A stretch of DNA of 28,133 nt from positions 1 to 28,133 of the IMG/VR virus record IMGVR_UViG_3300038954_000663; one strand, given 5' to 3'. The DNA is from a virus. Numbering within the stretch: position 1 is the stretch's first letter; each line of letters begins with the position of its first letter. Below are positions 21,765-28,047 of this stretch, piece after piece. Made by a program: the position numbers and the translations under genes. The notes under the pieces were generated by a model that saw only the letters and a program-made list of their open reading frames with translations, ran no database searches and was not told where the DNA came from.

Positions 21765-22943
21765 TCAAAATAAATTTAACTTATTATTTTCTTTATCTAT
21801 TCTTTTTTTTGCTATATTATAATAGTCTTCATTTACTTCAATTCCAATAAAATTGCGCCCTAATTCCATGCATGCTTTTCCTGTTGTTCCCGAACCCATG
21901 AAAGGATCTAAGACCGTGTGTTTTTCTCTTGAAATCATTGTTACTAAGTGTTTCATTAGAGCTAAGGGTTTTACTGTTGGATGAATATTTTTTGCTTTTT
22001 TAATTTTATTCAATCCTATATTATCTTGCAAATATTCGGTTTTATTGTTTTTAATAGCTCTTTGTGCGCCGCCTGATTGACCATATAGTCTTGTCGGCAT
22101 TTCCTCAAGCCCTTGATTGCGCTCTTTTTTGCTTGCTTTCGCACAATAGAAGTATCTGGAAGCGCTATATCTATTGTCTGTTTTTTTTGTTTTTCTTGCT
22201 TTTGAAGTCTCCGGAAAAATCTCCTTAACACAATCACTACCATCGTGGATTAGATTGGCGGGGTAGCGCCCGCACTCATTTGCCTTTTCTGTTGCTTTTT
22301 TAATTTTATCCGCATGATAGTTTTTGTCTTTCATCCATGGCCCTGTCCAGCCTTCATGCGTACTTATCGCTGAATTTTTTATACTTTTTGCATAACCATT
22401 AGACATTTTTTCACCATTCAACGGCACCCTACATCCATCAACATTAATCGCTCCAACGCCCCATTTCAAACAATTGCGGGCTATAGTTTTTTCACTTATC
22501 GGTTTCCGTGCCATGCATATAGGCTCGTGGGCGGGTTTTAGGTTTGTATTCCAGCCTTCCCATTCTGATTTACCTTTACCTACTTTCCCATCATTCCCAA
22601 GTATCTTATCGGCTGCCTTGCCTATATTCCGCCCTTTCGGGAAGCCTGAGCCATAAAGCCACAATACTTGGTCTCTTATCTCAAAGCCAGCATCTTCAAT
22701 TGCACATGCCAACCTGTGATATGTTCTCGCCCCGCCAAAAGCCAATAAATAGCCACCTGGTTTTAGCACTCTTAAACAGTCCTTCCATAAATCGACATTA
22801 TAGGCAATTCCTGTCGAGTCCCAAGACTTACCCATAAATCCTAATTCATACGGTGGATCGGTTATAACAGCGTCAACCGAATTATCTTCTATGGTTTCCA
22901 TAATATCTAAACAATCTGCATTATGAAGATTAAAATCACTCAA
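21765..22943 (-). CDS. DNA N6-adenine/N4-cytosine methyltransferase, beta class (392 aa)
   Basis: This S-adenosylmethionine-dependent methylase has catalytic DPPY at residues 29-32 in ITDPPYELGF and the SAM-binding motif DPFMGSGTTG at 346-355. Motif IV before motif I defines the beta class. LKPGGYLLAFGG and VKPLALMKHLV are further conserved blocks. The central region contains a target-recognition part with FYCAKASKKERN. Length is at the upper end for phage orphan methylases. The start is TTG at 22943 with an AGGA site eight bases upstream. No restriction partner is obvious except the HNH nuclease upstream, so it probably protects phage DNA. DPPY does not settle A versus C as target. Confidence 0.9.
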   Translation of the reverse strand: MSDFNLHNADCLDIMETIEDNSVDAVITDPPYELGFMGKSWDSTGIAYNVDLWKDCLRVLKPGGYLLAFGGARTYHRLACAIEDAGFEIRDQVLWLYGSGFPKGRNIGKAADKILGNDGKVGKGKSEWEGWNTNLKPAHEPICMARKPISEKTIARNCLKWGVGAINVDGCRVPLNGEKMSNGYAKSIKNSAISTHEGWTGPWMKDKNYHADKIKKATEKANECGRYPANLIHDGSDCVKEIFPETSKARKTKKTDNRYSASRYFYCAKASKKERNQGLEEMPTRLYGQSGGAQRAIKNNKTEYLQDNIGLNKIKKAKNIHPTVKPLALMKHLVTMISREKHTVLDPFMGSGTTGKACMELGRNFIGIEVNEDYYNIAKKRIDKENNKLNLF

Positions 22944-22966: not shown

Positions 22967-23110
22967 TTATTTTATTGCTTTACTATCTTCCCAGTACTTA
23001 GCACAAATAGCGATAGCTTGTTCTTGAGAACGGTTCTCTTTACTGACAAGATATTCTATACATCTATTCATAAAATCCGACTTTGTTTCTTTACTGTAAG
23101 GTCTAGGCAT
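22967..23110 (-). CDS. Small phage protein (47 aa) with an 'F..RC ... QAIAIC..YW' motif
   Basis: This is a 47-residue ORF beginning MPRPYSKETKSDF, with MNRCIEYLV and then SQEQAIAICAKYWED. The pattern 'F..RCm...............Q..AIC..W' is that of small conserved phage proteins near head genes. ATG at 23110 has GGTGG upstream and overlaps the HNH stop by eight bases. Its exact function is not known. Confidence 0.65.
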   Translation of the reverse strand: MPRPYSKETKSDFMNRCIEYLVSKENRSQEQAIAICAKYWEDSKAIK

Positions 23111-23462
23111 TATTCCACCACGATTGATAGTCTGCCCAGTCTAAACTGCCTTTATAAACCTGTAATAGCTTATTATAAACTTCTTTTTTATCTAAATACT
23201 TTATTACCTTTTTTGACTGTCTTCTTAATTCTGCATACTTATTATAAGTTAATATTTCGTTTTTTACCCAGTCAAACGGTTTCGCATGTATCTTGGTATG
23301 GCATTCATGGCATAACTCTATACCGTTGTCAAGATTCCACCTCATGCTAAGCGATTGTCTCGAAAATAGGTGGTGTCCGACCGTGTTGGACTGACCACAC
23401 AACTCACAACGGCCTTTCCGAGTGACTATTTTTTGCCATAAGGTATCATTTTTTTTATTCAT
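23103..23462 (-). CDS. HNH endonuclease (119 aa)
   Basis: The metal-binding and catalytic set is complete: CELC at residues 19-22, GHHLFSR at 29-35, N43 in RWNLDNGIELC, CHECH at 51-55 and H59. This is the HNH nuclease fold with a zinc knuckle. Phage HNH proteins next to terminase are often needed for packaging cleavage with TerL, which fits this location upstream of terS/terL, although the methylase gene lies between them. ATG makes an ATGA overlap with the previous gene. Confidence 0.85.
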   Translation of the reverse strand: MNKKNDTLWQKIVTRKGRCELCGQSNTVGHHLFSRQSLSMRWNLDNGIELCHECHTKIHAKPFDWVKNEILTYNKYAELRRQSKKVIKYLDKKEVYNKLLQVYKGSLDWADYQSWWNNA

Positions 23463-24241: not shown

Positions 24242-24880
24242 TTAAATATTATAGTTTTCTAAAATTTCACAACTATTACAACGTTCTATTATGTTCCAAT
24301 AAGGCGGGCGCATTCTAACTCGTCTTATACCGGATTTTTTCGGTAAATAACGCATTGCTTTTCCATTTTTTACCAAAGAATAATCTTCATTTATTTCTTC
24401 TACTTCTATATCTCTTATTTTGCCAAAACCATATGCACGCTTTTTCCCTAAATACCTAATATGCTTTTTCAGTAATTTCCTTACTTCGGTTCCAGAACCA
24501 TTAGCATATGCTATCATTTTGTTACATAACTGCAATGTAATTGGTATATTGTGCTCTCTATATTTGCCTTGTTTTTTGTTAGGACTCCCTTTGCAATTGT
24601 CGATATATTTTTCACGTAATTTTTTCCTAATATATCGTATATCTTCATAAACCTTGCCTTCTGGGAATAAAGCCGAAGCTTTCCAGCCCCACTCACCACC
24701 TATGTGCCACTTTTTTAACGGTAATGGTATTTCAGTTGGTTCTTCATCCCTTGTTGGAGGTTCACATTTACAATAATAAAACGCTAACGCATATGCTAGA
24801 AGCGAATCTAAGTGTATAGGTTCTCTTTTATCATAGATTAATCCTTCACCATCTAAGTGAAATGTTACTTTCATTTTCAT
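24242..24880 (-). CDS. csf3: Csf3/Cas5-like RAMP protein of a type IV-like CRISPR module (212 aa)
   Basis: This resembles the type IV Cas5 (Csf3) family, which caps the 5' side of the guide RNA in the complex. Residues 3-29 read KVTFHLDGEGLIYD then PIHLDSLLAYAL; the PIHLDxLLA block is a hallmark of Csf3. IPLPLKKW (51-58) and GWKASAL (65-71) follow, then LGKKRAYGFGKI (144-155), the Gly-rich RAMP loop, and RPPYWN near the C-terminus (191-196). I choose ATG 24880, five bases after AGGTGG and with an ATGA overlap to the radical SAM stop; the GTG at 24889 is part of that site. It is the last gene of its operon, just before the tandem terminator. Confidence 0.72.
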   Translation of the reverse strand: MKMKVTFHLDGEGLIYDKREPIHLDSLLAYALAFYYCKCEPPTRDEEPTEIPLPLKKWHIGGEWGWKASALFPEGKVYEDIRYIRKKLREKYIDNCKGSPNKKQGKYREHNIPITLQLCNKMIAYANGSGTEVRKLLKKHIRYLGKKRAYGFGKIRDIEVEEINEDYSLVKNGKAMRYLPKKSGIRRVRMRPPYWNIIERCNSCEILENYNI

Positions 24881-26157
24881 TTTTTCCACCTTTCATTAAT
24901 GTATCCTGTTGCTTTCGAAAATAAATAATTTTCATTCGCATGTGCTAAATCCATGCTTTCTTGAAAAGATTTTTTCCCTGACAAACCATATAAATATAAC
25001 CCCTTTCTATAAAACCTTTTATGCCATTTTTTTATTATGTTATATAATTCATTATTAAACTTTATCTTTTTTCCACCAATCGGTGTACAAGGTAATGGTA
25101 CAAAATGAGTCCACTTTATTTCTATATATATCTTACCAATATAACGTTCTATTAAATTGGCAAAATCTAAAAAATCGTCGCGGGTATCCCAAGGATAACC
25201 ATATATCAGGAATAATCTAACATTTTTATATCCTTCTTTTATTAAATATTCAAAAAAGTTTTTTATTTGTTTTTTATTGAGCTTTTTATTTATTTTACAT
25301 CTAGTTTTATCGGTTAAACCGTCTATACCAACACGAATTAATTGATCCTTGCCAATTTCCAGTCCTTTTCGCAATATTTGGCTGATTCTATAACTACCTG
25401 TTGCCTGATTATAACTATTATTGTTACAATACTCCATTATCTCATTGTAATATTTATATGAAGCTTCATCAGGCGCAAATAAATGAATGCGATTACTTTT
25501 ACTCTTATCTGCTCTCATTATCGTTTTTAATACTGTTTTTTTATTCTTGTAACGATAAGGTACTGTGTTACCTAATTCACAAAAAGCACACCTATAGGGA
25601 CAACCTCTGGCAAGCTCAATATACCAACGGGAATTATTTGTATTAGGATGATTCAAATATGGAGGGTTTTCTGGAATAGGGTCTTCAATATTAAGTTTGG
25701 GAATTGATCCATTATAATTACTACAATTTATTGTTCCAGGAAGATTACTAAAATCATAATCTTTGTTTTTTATAAAACCCTTTACTGCATTATATATCCA
25801 CGTTTCACCGTCTCCTACACAAATATAATCAGCGAATGGGATTAGTGGTTTGGGGTTACAGTATGTTACGTGCCCCCCAATTATACGTATTCTTGCACGT
25901 TTAGGCATCTGAATCAATTTCCAATAATCTCTATAATAATGCACGCTAACTAATTCTAAATCATATCCCGTTTTCGCAGAATCATATGTTATAATATCAA
26001 CTTCAGCGCCCGCTTCTTCAGCCCAATGTTTAATATAATATGCACCTATACTTCCAATATTATCATAAGATGTGGGTTCAACTAAACACGCAGTTATCTT
26101 TTTATTGTTATCTTTTTTTTGTAATAGTTCTTTTACTATTTCTAATTGTAAACTCAA
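24877..26157 (-). CDS. Radical SAM enzyme with N-terminal B12-binding-like domain
   Basis: The motif ELARGCPYRCAFCELG contains CxxxCxxC, which binds the [4Fe-4S] cluster of radical SAM enzymes. Upstream is a Rossmann-like part with IIGGHVTYCNPKPLI and YICVGDGETW, matching the 'iGGph...D.vv.GEGE' pattern of cobalamin-binding radical SAM proteins, although the DxHxxG cobalt ligand motif is missing. Downstream IYGYPWDTRDDF and HFVPLPCTPIG are typical of the family. Members do methylations, methylthiolations and similar chemistry; the substrate here is unknown. I favour TTG 26157, which makes a TTGA overlap with the csf1-like stop (426 aa); a GTG at 26229 would add 24 basic residues without a ribosome site. 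It sits between csf1- and csf3-like genes. Confidence 0.85.
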   Translation of the reverse strand: MSLQLEIVKELLQKKDNNKKITACLVEPTSYDNIGSIGAYYIKHWAEEAGAEVDIITYDSAKTGYDLELVSVHYYRDYWKLIQMPKRARIRIIGGHVTYCNPKPLIPFADYICVGDGETWIYNAVKGFIKNKDYDFSNLPGTINCSNYNGSIPKLNIEDPIPENPPYLNHPNTNNSRWYIELARGCPYRCAFCELGNTVPYRYKNKKTVLKTIMRADKSKSNRIHLFAPDEASYKYYNEIMEYCNNNSYNQATGSYRISQILRKGLEIGKDQLIRVGIDGLTDKTRCKINKKLNKKQIKNFFEYLIKEGYKNVRLFLIYGYPWDTRDDFLDFANLIERYIGKIYIEIKWTHFVPLPCTPIGGKKIKFNNELYNIIKKWHKRFYRKGLYLYGLSGKKSFQESMDLAHANENYLFSKATGYINERWKK

Positions 26158-26831
26158 AAAAGTTCCATTTCTCTCTTTTTTGCTTTTTCTTCGGCTTTTA
26201 ATTCTTTTTGGCTTGGAAGCAAATAACACATAAATTGATACAATGGCGTGTTACAAATTGTTTTAGCCCAAGTTTTGAAATCGATCCATTTCTTCCAACC
26301 ATATTTTTTCATTATACTAATAGGACAATCTAATGTTTCTAAAATCGATCGACCAAGCCCCGCTCTAATTTCTTTGTTAAGTCTTTTCCAAATTGTCAAC
26401 ATTTTTTTGCGATTACTACAATCCACATCTAGCATTTCAAAGCGCCAAATTACAGAATCAGTATTAACATGAGATACTAAACTGCCATGTTTTTTATAAG
26501 TTGTAGTGGCATATCCAGACCAAATATCCGGATAATTTCCATCAATTACTATATCTCTAAGTTCTTGTCTTGTCAACTTTCTAAAACCATCTCTATCACA
26601 ATACCAACTGCTTTTTGTTTTTCGGTTCTTCAAGCAATGCCAGGCGTTTACACCAACTCGGTCGCTTGTTGGCGCTTGCATAAGATTTTCATTTGTAAAT
26701 GAACTTTTTACTAGTTTTTTACGGTTTACAGTTTCTGTCAACCGCCCCGTGAAGGCACAAATGCCTTCACGAGGTTTTTCTGGAAGCTCTGTCTTTTCGA
26801 TATGTGGTGCAATAAAATCAATTGGATGCAT
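26154..26831 (-). CDS. csf1: Csf1-like (type IV Cas8-like) protein (225 aa)
   Basis: The N-terminus contains GICAFTGRLTE (23-33), a CxxTG knuckle like the zinc-finger start of Csf1, with further Cys at 66 and 78. Later come YKKHGSLVSHVN (112-123), a KKH...vN block, and RAGLGRSILETL and PLYQFMCYLLPSQKE near the C-terminus, which resemble the type IV large-subunit family as I know it. Confidence depends partly on its location between csf2-like and csf3-like genes. In type IV complexes Csf1 binds the end of the filament near the guide 5' handle. ATG has GGAGG upstream and overlaps the csf2-like stop by 14 bases. The first 30 codons encode a 12-bp hairpin. Confidence 0.6.
   Translation of the reverse strand: MHPIDFIAPHIEKTELPEKPREGICAFTGRLTETVNRKKLVKSSFTNENLMQAPTSDRVGVNAWHCLKNRKTKSSWYCDRDGFRKLTRQELRDIVIDGNYPDIWSGYATTTYKKHGSLVSHVNTDSVIWRFEMLDVDCSNRKKMLTIWKRLNKEIRAGLGRSILETLDCPISIMKKYGWKKWIDFKTWAKTICNTPLYQFMCYLLPSQKELKAEEKAKKREMELF
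26745..26774. repeat. 12-bp inverted repeat with 6-base loop inside the csf1-like gene
   Basis: CCCCGTGAAGGC (26745-26756) and GCCTTCACGAGG (26763-26774) form a stem with nine perfect central pairs and one mismatch or wobble. On the minus-strand RNA it spans the codons for PREGICAFTGR. On the plus strand it is followed by GTTTTTC-like T residues, so it could act as an antisense intrinsic terminator. It is GC-rich compared with its surroundings. Confidence 0.45.
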
Positions 26832-28047
26832 CTAAACCTCCAATTTCTATCAAATAGTTACGAATTTTTTCTTTATTTTTTTCCAAGTAGTCTATATATA
26901 ACTTAGTACTTGGTAAATTGTTAAACTCAACTTGTACTTTACCAAAGCCACGTCTGTTAGATGCTCCGATATAGCCTTTCTTAGAAAGCTGTTTCAAAGC
27001 ATAACCCAAACATGATTTTTCTAAATCTGTAATATGTTCATCACAATCTATACCGCCTGTCAACTGTACACCTTCCTTTAAGCATTCTGTATTCGCAATC
27101 ATAGCATGGTTCTCACCGTCGCAATGTCCTTCATAATCATCTCGGCGTGTCAAGTATTGCCATTCTATTAATTCAGCTATTGACTTATTACCGTTATTCC
27201 ATTCTAGGCAATGTGGTTTATAATCTCCGAATTCAAGACGCCCTGGAATAACACGATTTCCCAAAGCCGTCCCAAGTAGCGATACCATAGGAATCATATT
27301 ACGCAATTCTACCATACCTTTCCCTTTTGTTGCACCGTTATTGCCGAGTTTTTTCCCGATTCCTTTAGCAGCTTTGCTATTATCTTCTAGAGCACCACCA
27401 CTATAAAGGGCATAATGTAACCATAATTCAACTTCTGGTTCTACTTTTCCGCTATCTATACCGAGCCTATCCAAATAATCAGTTGCCAAAATATCTCTTA
27501 TTTGCCCTCGCAATGCATTTCCAGCATAGAAAGGCAATTCAAGAACGTTGTTTTTATCTGTCAACACCGATTTTCTTCGAAAAAGTGTTGCGTTGCCGGC
27601 CTTTTGGTCGCTCCCGTGCGATAAGGGAGATAGGCAAGTGAATGTTATGCCAATATCGTATTCAGTTGGCTTAGGTGCTCTACCTAAATCGATATTATTT
27701 TCTGGTAATTCAATTTCAATTTCTCTCAATAAACCCAAAAATTCGGCTTTTTTTAGTGTGGCAAACATTGCACAAGCCTTAGGGTTCTGCCTAATCCACA
27801 ACAAAACCGAATGAGATTCTTCTTTAGATTGATGTTTCATGAAATCAATCCAATTTGTATCTTTTATTTCTGTTATATCTACATCCAATAATTTCATTAA
27901 AGTTTCAATAAATTTTGCGATATTTGGCTGGGAACTTGCCTGGATTATTCGATCCGAGTAGAAATCGGCAAATCCACGTTTGACCTTAATTTGTGATGCT
28001 TTTGCAATGTTAAATAACAATTGCATTACAACCTTAAAAGTTTTCAT
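26818..28047 (-). CDS. csf2: Csf2/Cas7-like RAMP backbone protein (409 aa)
   Basis: The RAMP part carries the three family blocks: CLSPLSHGS (138-146), LPFYAGNALRGQIRD (171-185) and GASNRRGFGKV (361-371, Gly-rich loop). This matches the Cas7 group of type III/IV complexes, and the neighbouring Csf3-like gene points to type IV. Such proteins polymerise along the guide RNA. About 120 residues at the N-terminus precede the RAMP part and are mostly helical, longer than usual Csf2 (roughly 330-350 aa). ATG 28047 has GGAG five bases upstream; an in-frame ATG at 28086 lies before that site. It overlaps the upstream ORF (ATGA) and the csf1-like gene. Confidence 0.75.
   Translation of the reverse strand: MKTFKVVMQLLFNIAKASQIKVKRGFADFYSDRIIQASSQPNIAKFIETLMKLLDVDITEIKDTNWIDFMKHQSKEESHSVLLWIRQNPKACAMFATLKKAEFLGLLREIEIELPENNIDLGRAPKPTEYDIGITFTCLSPLSHGSDQKAGNATLFRRKSVLTDKNNVLELPFYAGNALRGQIRDILATDYLDRLGIDSGKVEPEVELWLHYALYSGGALEDNSKAAKGIGKKLGNNGATKGKGMVELRNMIPMVSLLGTALGNRVIPGRLEFGDYKPHCLEWNNGNKSIAELIEWQYLTRRDDYEGHCDGENHAMIANTECLKEGVQLTGGIDCDEHITDLEKSCLGYALKQLSKKGYIGASNRRGFGKVQVEFNNLPSTKLYIDYLEKNKEKIRNYLIEIGGLDASN

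Follow-up and report, generated by a model that had tools for sequence, protein, structure and literature searches.

A tailed-phage variant of the type IV-B csf operon with a B12-type radical SAM enzyme in the CysH position

The window analyzed here (the whole stretch of DNA, 28,133 bases) is the entire IMG/VR record IMGVR_UViG_3300038954_000663, classed as linear. It represents a tailed-phage contig. Genes for the terminase subunits, a scaffold protein, a glycosyl hydrolase 108 endolysin and a Mu-type portal carrying a fused gpF-like domain all lie on its minus strand. At its upstream edge, also on the minus strand, lies an operon of four csf-associated genes (28047–24242), with only 86 bases separating csf2 from the contig end. 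The following features were assigned:

26818..28047, minus strand: cas11-csf2 fusion gene (409 aa), encoding a Cas11-like helical domain, a linker and a Cas7/Csf2 domain; start at ATG 28047, preceded by a strong ribosome-binding site, GAAAGGAG
27727..28047, minus strand: Cas11-like small-subunit domain, residues 1–107 of the fusion
26154..26831, minus strand: csf1 (225 aa), matching PADLOC typeIV_Cas8
24877..26229, minus strand: gene of the B12-type radical SAM enzyme, located between csf1 and csf3 in the CysH slot, matching Pfam Radical_SAM
25579..25602, minus strand: CxxxCxxC motif for the [4Fe-4S] cluster (C210, C214 and C217 in the 450-aa reading)
24242..24889, minus strand: csf3, longest open reading frame from GTG 24889, matching PADLOC typeIV_Cas5

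The gene order is thus csf2 (fused to Cas11)–csf1–radical SAM–csf3. The genes csf2 and csf1 overlap by 14 bases, and the other two junctions become stop–start overlaps when nearer starts are used. The longest radical SAM frame begins with GTG at 26229 (450 aa), but translation more likely begins at a TTG at 26160 that overlaps the csf1 stop (427 aa); csf3 likely begins with ATG at 24880, in an ATGA overlap with the radical SAM stop. As adjoining genes share a few bases at each junction, translation is probably coupled, in agreement with a preliminary description of this DNA, which saw one coupled operon. The same description placed the operon directly upstream of the packaging genes, which is not the case: three small open reading frames and a DNA methyltransferase gene intervene (24203–21765). 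The latter encodes a stand-alone N6/N4 DNA methyltransferase (21765–22943), and the interval separating the csf operon from the terminase genes also contains an HNH endonuclease gene (23103–23462).

All three Csf proteins named in the preliminary description were recovered at the positions claimed. PADLOC type IV profiles matched Csf2 (typeIV_Cas7, E 1.7e-43), Csf1 (typeIV_Cas8, E 2.1e-7) and Csf3 (typeIV_Cas5, E 1.3e-39), while the NCBIfam matches stayed below their cut-offs both for Csf2 (cas7_csf2, E 9.3e-9, 34.9 bits against an equivalog cut-off of 130) and for Csf3 (cas5_csf3, E 1e-22, 80.9 bits against 140). The Csf1 profile was matched by 15 of 15 homologs, with a best E-value of 2.8e-13, and hhalign, comparing profile with profile, matched the Csf1 set to canonical Csf1 with a probability of 99.4 and an E-value of 5e-21. 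In the AlphaFold model of the fusion protein (pLDDT 83), helices spanning residues 2–107 precede a Cas7 fold, and type IV Cas7 chains are the top Foldseek matches of the Csf2 model.

The helical N-terminus of this protein had been overlooked. It matches PADLOC typeIV_Cas11 with an E-value of 2.4e-5, as do 9 of 14 homologs, and aligns with separate Cas11 proteins in hhalign (E 4.1e-5, probability 70). In the aligned plasmid and phage relatives lacking the fusion, cas11 is a gene of its own directly upstream of csf2. The Cas11 small subunit is therefore present as the N-terminal domain of Csf2; the sequence match is significant but weak, and position and fold support the assignment as well. Fused loci form a single clade on the tree (support 100/100).

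Also overlooked was the fourth protein of the operon. It contains a Pfam Radical_SAM domain (E 9.6e-13), and its catalytic motifs are intact: the CxxxCxxC cysteines are invariant in 15 of 15 homologs, and GG...D...GE positions resembling those of a B12 domain are invariant among the homologs aligned. Between the relatives from loci L010 and L014, dN is 0.11 and dS 1.42, indicating purifying selection. The AlphaFold model (pLDDT 90) finds by far its best fold match in MgmA (PDB 9CCB), a B12-dependent radical SAM enzyme that methylates methyl-coenzyme M reductase (Z 29.0 over 363 residues, rmsd 3.2), followed by AprD4, RNA-bound MiaB, CysS and TsrM (Z 22–23). A sequence search of the PDB with this single protein returned MgmA alone (E 9e-5). 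The two enzymes share the fold and the CxxxCxxC motif, and the window protein appears to repeat the succession of a B12-type N-terminal domain and a radical SAM barrel; however, they are only 17% identical, and MgmA acts on protein and has no link to CRISPR. The model also aligns across the B12 domain of MgmA, CysS and TsrM. The Pfam B12-binding profile reached only 0.096 and the classical DxHxxG motif is absent. Judged by its model, the protein is an enzyme of the B12-type radical SAM kind, with cobalamin binding as a prediction. Its scores lie below the curated cut-offs of TIGR04014 (39.6 vs. 360 bits), TIGR04013 (68.9 vs. 251) and TIGR03960 (59.8 vs. 462).

A CysH-like protein is a usual component of type IV-B systems. 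No CysH match was found anywhere in the whole window record, whereas 14 sister records do match. In this genome a cysH gene could possibly lie upstream of csf2, past the contig end; 14 other radical SAM records are without CysH. The locus belongs to type IV-B by its subunits but lacks the hallmark CysH, and we thus file it as a variant rather than a standard member. The preliminary description, which had taken it for a plain type IV-B ribonucleoprotein, was right as to the subunits; the fusion of Cas11 to Csf2 and the radical SAM enzyme replacing CysH set the locus apart. We are highly confident in identifying the operon as a type IV-B variant with a radical SAM enzyme in the CysH slot.

Repeat scans of the window and of about 398 kb of related records detected no CRISPR array, mini-array or guide RNA. 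What they did return was limited to a recurring tRNA-like motif, low-complexity repeats and isolated short pairs, and an implanted test array was recovered. Pfam and PHROGs searches of the open reading frames around the operon gave no match to DinG, Cas6 or Cas10, and the operon contains no nuclease gene.

The locus resembles the type IV-B complex of Mycobacterium sp. JS623 (7JHY) and the archaeal Fuxivirus locus in its Csf1, Cas11, Csf2 and Csf3 subunits, in being carried by a mobile element and in showing no array in the window, no nuclease and no adaptation genes. It differs in gene order, which is csf1–cas11–csf2–csf3–cysH in type IV-B and csf2–csf1–enzyme–csf3 here, in the fusion of Cas11 to Csf2, and in having a B12-type radical SAM enzyme instead of CysH. 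The mini-array of Fuxivirus (PMC10848311) has no counterpart here. Among class 1 fusions, Cas7-11 of types III-E and III-I likewise unites Cas7 and Cas11 units in one chain; however, according to the 2025 CRISPR-Cas classification several Cas7 units are fused there (PMC12669027), whereas here one Cas11 stands ahead of one type IV Cas7. No radical SAM variant appears in passages and term counts of the same classification. The open-access papers searched contained no report pairing radical SAM enzymes with type IV csf genes; one may exist in a subscription journal. The radical SAM module reported in Thermus phages (PMC11437467) was considered as a precedent and rejected, its partner being DUF483 rather than csf genes.

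The association of the enzyme with csf genes recurs across viral records. IMG/VR scanned for the radical SAM protein alone yielded 17 viral records, and csf genes adjoin it in all of them; two of these records (L039 and L041) are seemingly near-copies, and the contig of another (L065) begins inside csf3. Since the scan patterns were built from csf-linked radical SAM proteins, the search is biased to that family, and on the sequences recovered the csf linkage appears to be a property of this family, not of radical SAM genes at large. Csf2 relatives were found at 19 IMG/VR loci with alignments built stepwise. Matches in IMG/VR required sister-locus alignments: single-protein scans with the window radical SAM protein or the window Csf2, and one early Csf2 alignment, gave none, and alignments in which distant plasmid Csf2 or Csf3 proteins were added to those of the window were too diverse for scanning. 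These many further viral records, together with profiles and fold, bear out both the type IV Csf assignment and the conservation of gene order in other phages that the preliminary description had expected.

All radical SAM loci are metagenomic. One of them, L010, lies on a contig of a metagenome-assembled genome labelled Anaerolinea and has the same order of fusion, csf1 and radical SAM. Among 301 genomes from the phylum of G021, a full match to the radical SAM protein was obtained only in G021 itself (683 bits; next 107), the carrier of L010. No match at 1e-40 was obtained among 398 genomes from the G020 phylum; this search had no internal positive control, though a query with the same alignment did recover its target in the G021-phylum search. 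Annotated collections of 50,697 phage and 72,556 plasmid records contained no close relative of the enzyme, their distant matches being at most 24% identical.

Sister loci with the same Cas11–Csf2 fusion carry a CysH-like PP-loop protein in place of the radical SAM enzyme. The SxGKDS loop is retained in all 12 CysH-like proteins aligned, each of which also matches Pfam PAPS_reduct. Across 20 whole records, completeness of the viral ones not being given, the radical SAM enzyme was found in 6 and a CysH-like protein in 14, with none carrying both and none carrying neither; a further nine radical SAM records are likewise without CysH. In most fused loci an enzyme of either kind sits between csf1 and csf3, the exceptions being L021, L026 and L027, with CysH after csf3, and L025, with a rearranged order. 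In non-fused loci of canonical order the radical SAM gene follows csf3, which is the position of CysH in plasmid loci such as L004 and L005.

On the combined Csf2, Csf1 and Csf3 tree, grouping the radical SAM loci under one origin was rejected (AU p 1.3e-7). A larger Csf2 tree requires 6 enzyme changes, and well-supported branches make at least 3 of these unavoidable. L016, with a radical SAM enzyme, and L018, with the start of a CysH gene at the contig end, are sisters (support 100/97). Replacement is also visible within one enzyme kind: L014 and L030 have Csf2, Csf1 and Csf3 proteins that are 92%, 89% and 90% identical, while their radical SAM proteins share 48%, and the DNA similarity drops at the start codon of the radical SAM gene and resumes at its stop. 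The enzyme slot behaves as an exchangeable cassette that has been swapped more than once.

Additional genes were observed at or near this slot. The non-fused loci L036 (6514–7992) and L058 (4604–6004) encode a second, different B12-binding radical SAM protein (Pfam B12-binding about 1e-8), placed between csf3 and the csf-linked radical SAM gene. In L032 (9891–12454), DUF3440-like proteins, relatives of PAPS reductase, and ParB-domain proteins accompany CysH inside the csf1–csf3 slot; a DUF3440-like/ParB-domain protein is encoded immediately after csf3 in L015 (11516–12229), and such proteins also lie downstream of the csf genes in the haloarchaeal plasmids L002, L003 and L011. A gene upstream of the type IV-B genes in the Natrinema plasmid L002 (844–1632) is annotated as phage Gp37/Gp68 family, which we take to be radical SAM-like as well. 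In the rearranged locus L025 (9224–12230; L028 is near-identical), two csf3 copies flank CysH and csf1.

The recurrent exchange of CysH for a B12-type radical SAM enzyme in uncultivated viruses offers a concrete clue to the role of type IV-B systems. Reviews point to CysH as the likely key to their function (PMC7937560, PMC8175902). As an unrelated second enzyme repeatedly replaces CysH and never stands alongside it, the complex seems to need an enzyme role rather than CysH as such, and that role is narrowed to whatever the chemistries of CysH and radical SAM enzymes can share. The swap argues for a catalytic step, which was absent from the roles listed in the preliminary description (action against other mobile elements or host defence, or RNA binding in general), and it turns the role of the type IV-B enzyme into a testable question.

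Type IV-B complexes are filaments of Csf2 and Cas11 that hold RNA of regular length able to pair (PMC7937560). We hypothesize that the Cas11–Csf2 fusion would build such an RNA-holding filament, supplying backbone and belly in one chain, that Csf3 and Csf1 would complete it, and that the complex would carry a short RNA. It may then present bound nucleic acid, be it the RNA or DNA of a target or the RNA of the complex itself, to the radical SAM enzyme, which would modify it, probably through methylation or a different radical-based change. The target would be marked or disabled rather than cut, to the advantage of the phage against host defence or rival elements. MiaB is one of the radical SAM enzymes that modify tRNA, while the substrates methylated by B12 radical SAM enzymes are of many kinds. 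With two unrelated enzymes using one slot, a shared substrate presented by the complex is most plausible, which favours modification of nucleic acid; the PP-loop enzyme DndC has DNA as its substrate (PMC8175902, PMC10853773). However, the nearest structural relative, MgmA, acts on protein, so nucleic-acid modification is a lean and not a result, and CysH and the radical SAM enzyme may have different substrates. The lack of any guide RNA or array in the scans also weighs against guided action. We give this proposal, modification of complex-presented nucleic acid by the slot enzyme, somewhat under an even chance.

An extended form of the proposal, which we regard as possible but doubtful, treats the Csf ribonucleoprotein as a viral RNA-programmed platform with exchangeable nucleic-acid-modifying enzymes (B12 radical SAM, PP-loop CysH, DUF3440/ParB). 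If true, it would represent a CRISPR-derived system that chemically alters its target, neither cutting nor blocking it, and would also answer the long-standing question of what CysH does in type IV-B.

Alternatively, target binding could activate the radical SAM or CysH enzyme to produce an altered nucleotide or small molecule that halts growth of the host or of a rival phage, in the manner of type III cyclic oligoadenylates or the chain-terminating nucleotides of viperins. Type IV is descended from type III-like systems, cofactors of the nucleotide type serve both PP-loop and radical SAM enzymes, viperin-like enzymes appear among the weaker fold matches, and swappable enzymes would fit swappable products. 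However, the B12 methylase is far ahead of viperins as a fold match (Z 29 vs. 12), and an effector sensing such a product was not identified in the operon; we consider this explanation unlikely, if worth weighing.

About as unlikely in our judgement is that the enzyme tailors host tRNA or the short RNA that the complex carries, while the complex acts by binding alone, either by keeping rival elements from being transcribed, as type IV-A does, or by sequestering host crRNAs. RNA-bound MiaB ranks with the top fold matches (Z 22.7), type IV-A blocks without cutting (PMC12669027), and the missing nuclease gene would fit. Against this, DinG helicase, Cas6 and an array, looked for in the window, are all absent, and MiaB does not have the B12-type domain pattern of the window enzyme.

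The original view of an ordinary type IV-B ribonucleoprotein whose middle gene is incidental agrees with the presence of Csf1, Csf2 and Csf3 and with carriage on a mobile element, but is very improbable given that 17 other viral records have the radical SAM gene in this operon, in place of CysH. That the enzyme is an unrelated auxiliary metabolic gene brought beside csf by chance or shared mobility is hardly credible: some viruses of anoxic habitats do carry many radical SAM genes (PMC9723712), but csf adjacency in 17 of 17 records rules out chance, no close relative turned up in the phage and plasmid collections, and the one full match among the G021-phylum genomes was the csf-bearing G021 itself.

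Among the phage genes of the related records, terminase matches in those of L022, L021, L030 and L012 cross one or two in-frame TAG or TGA codons, for which recoding, a split gene and sequence error are all possible explanations.
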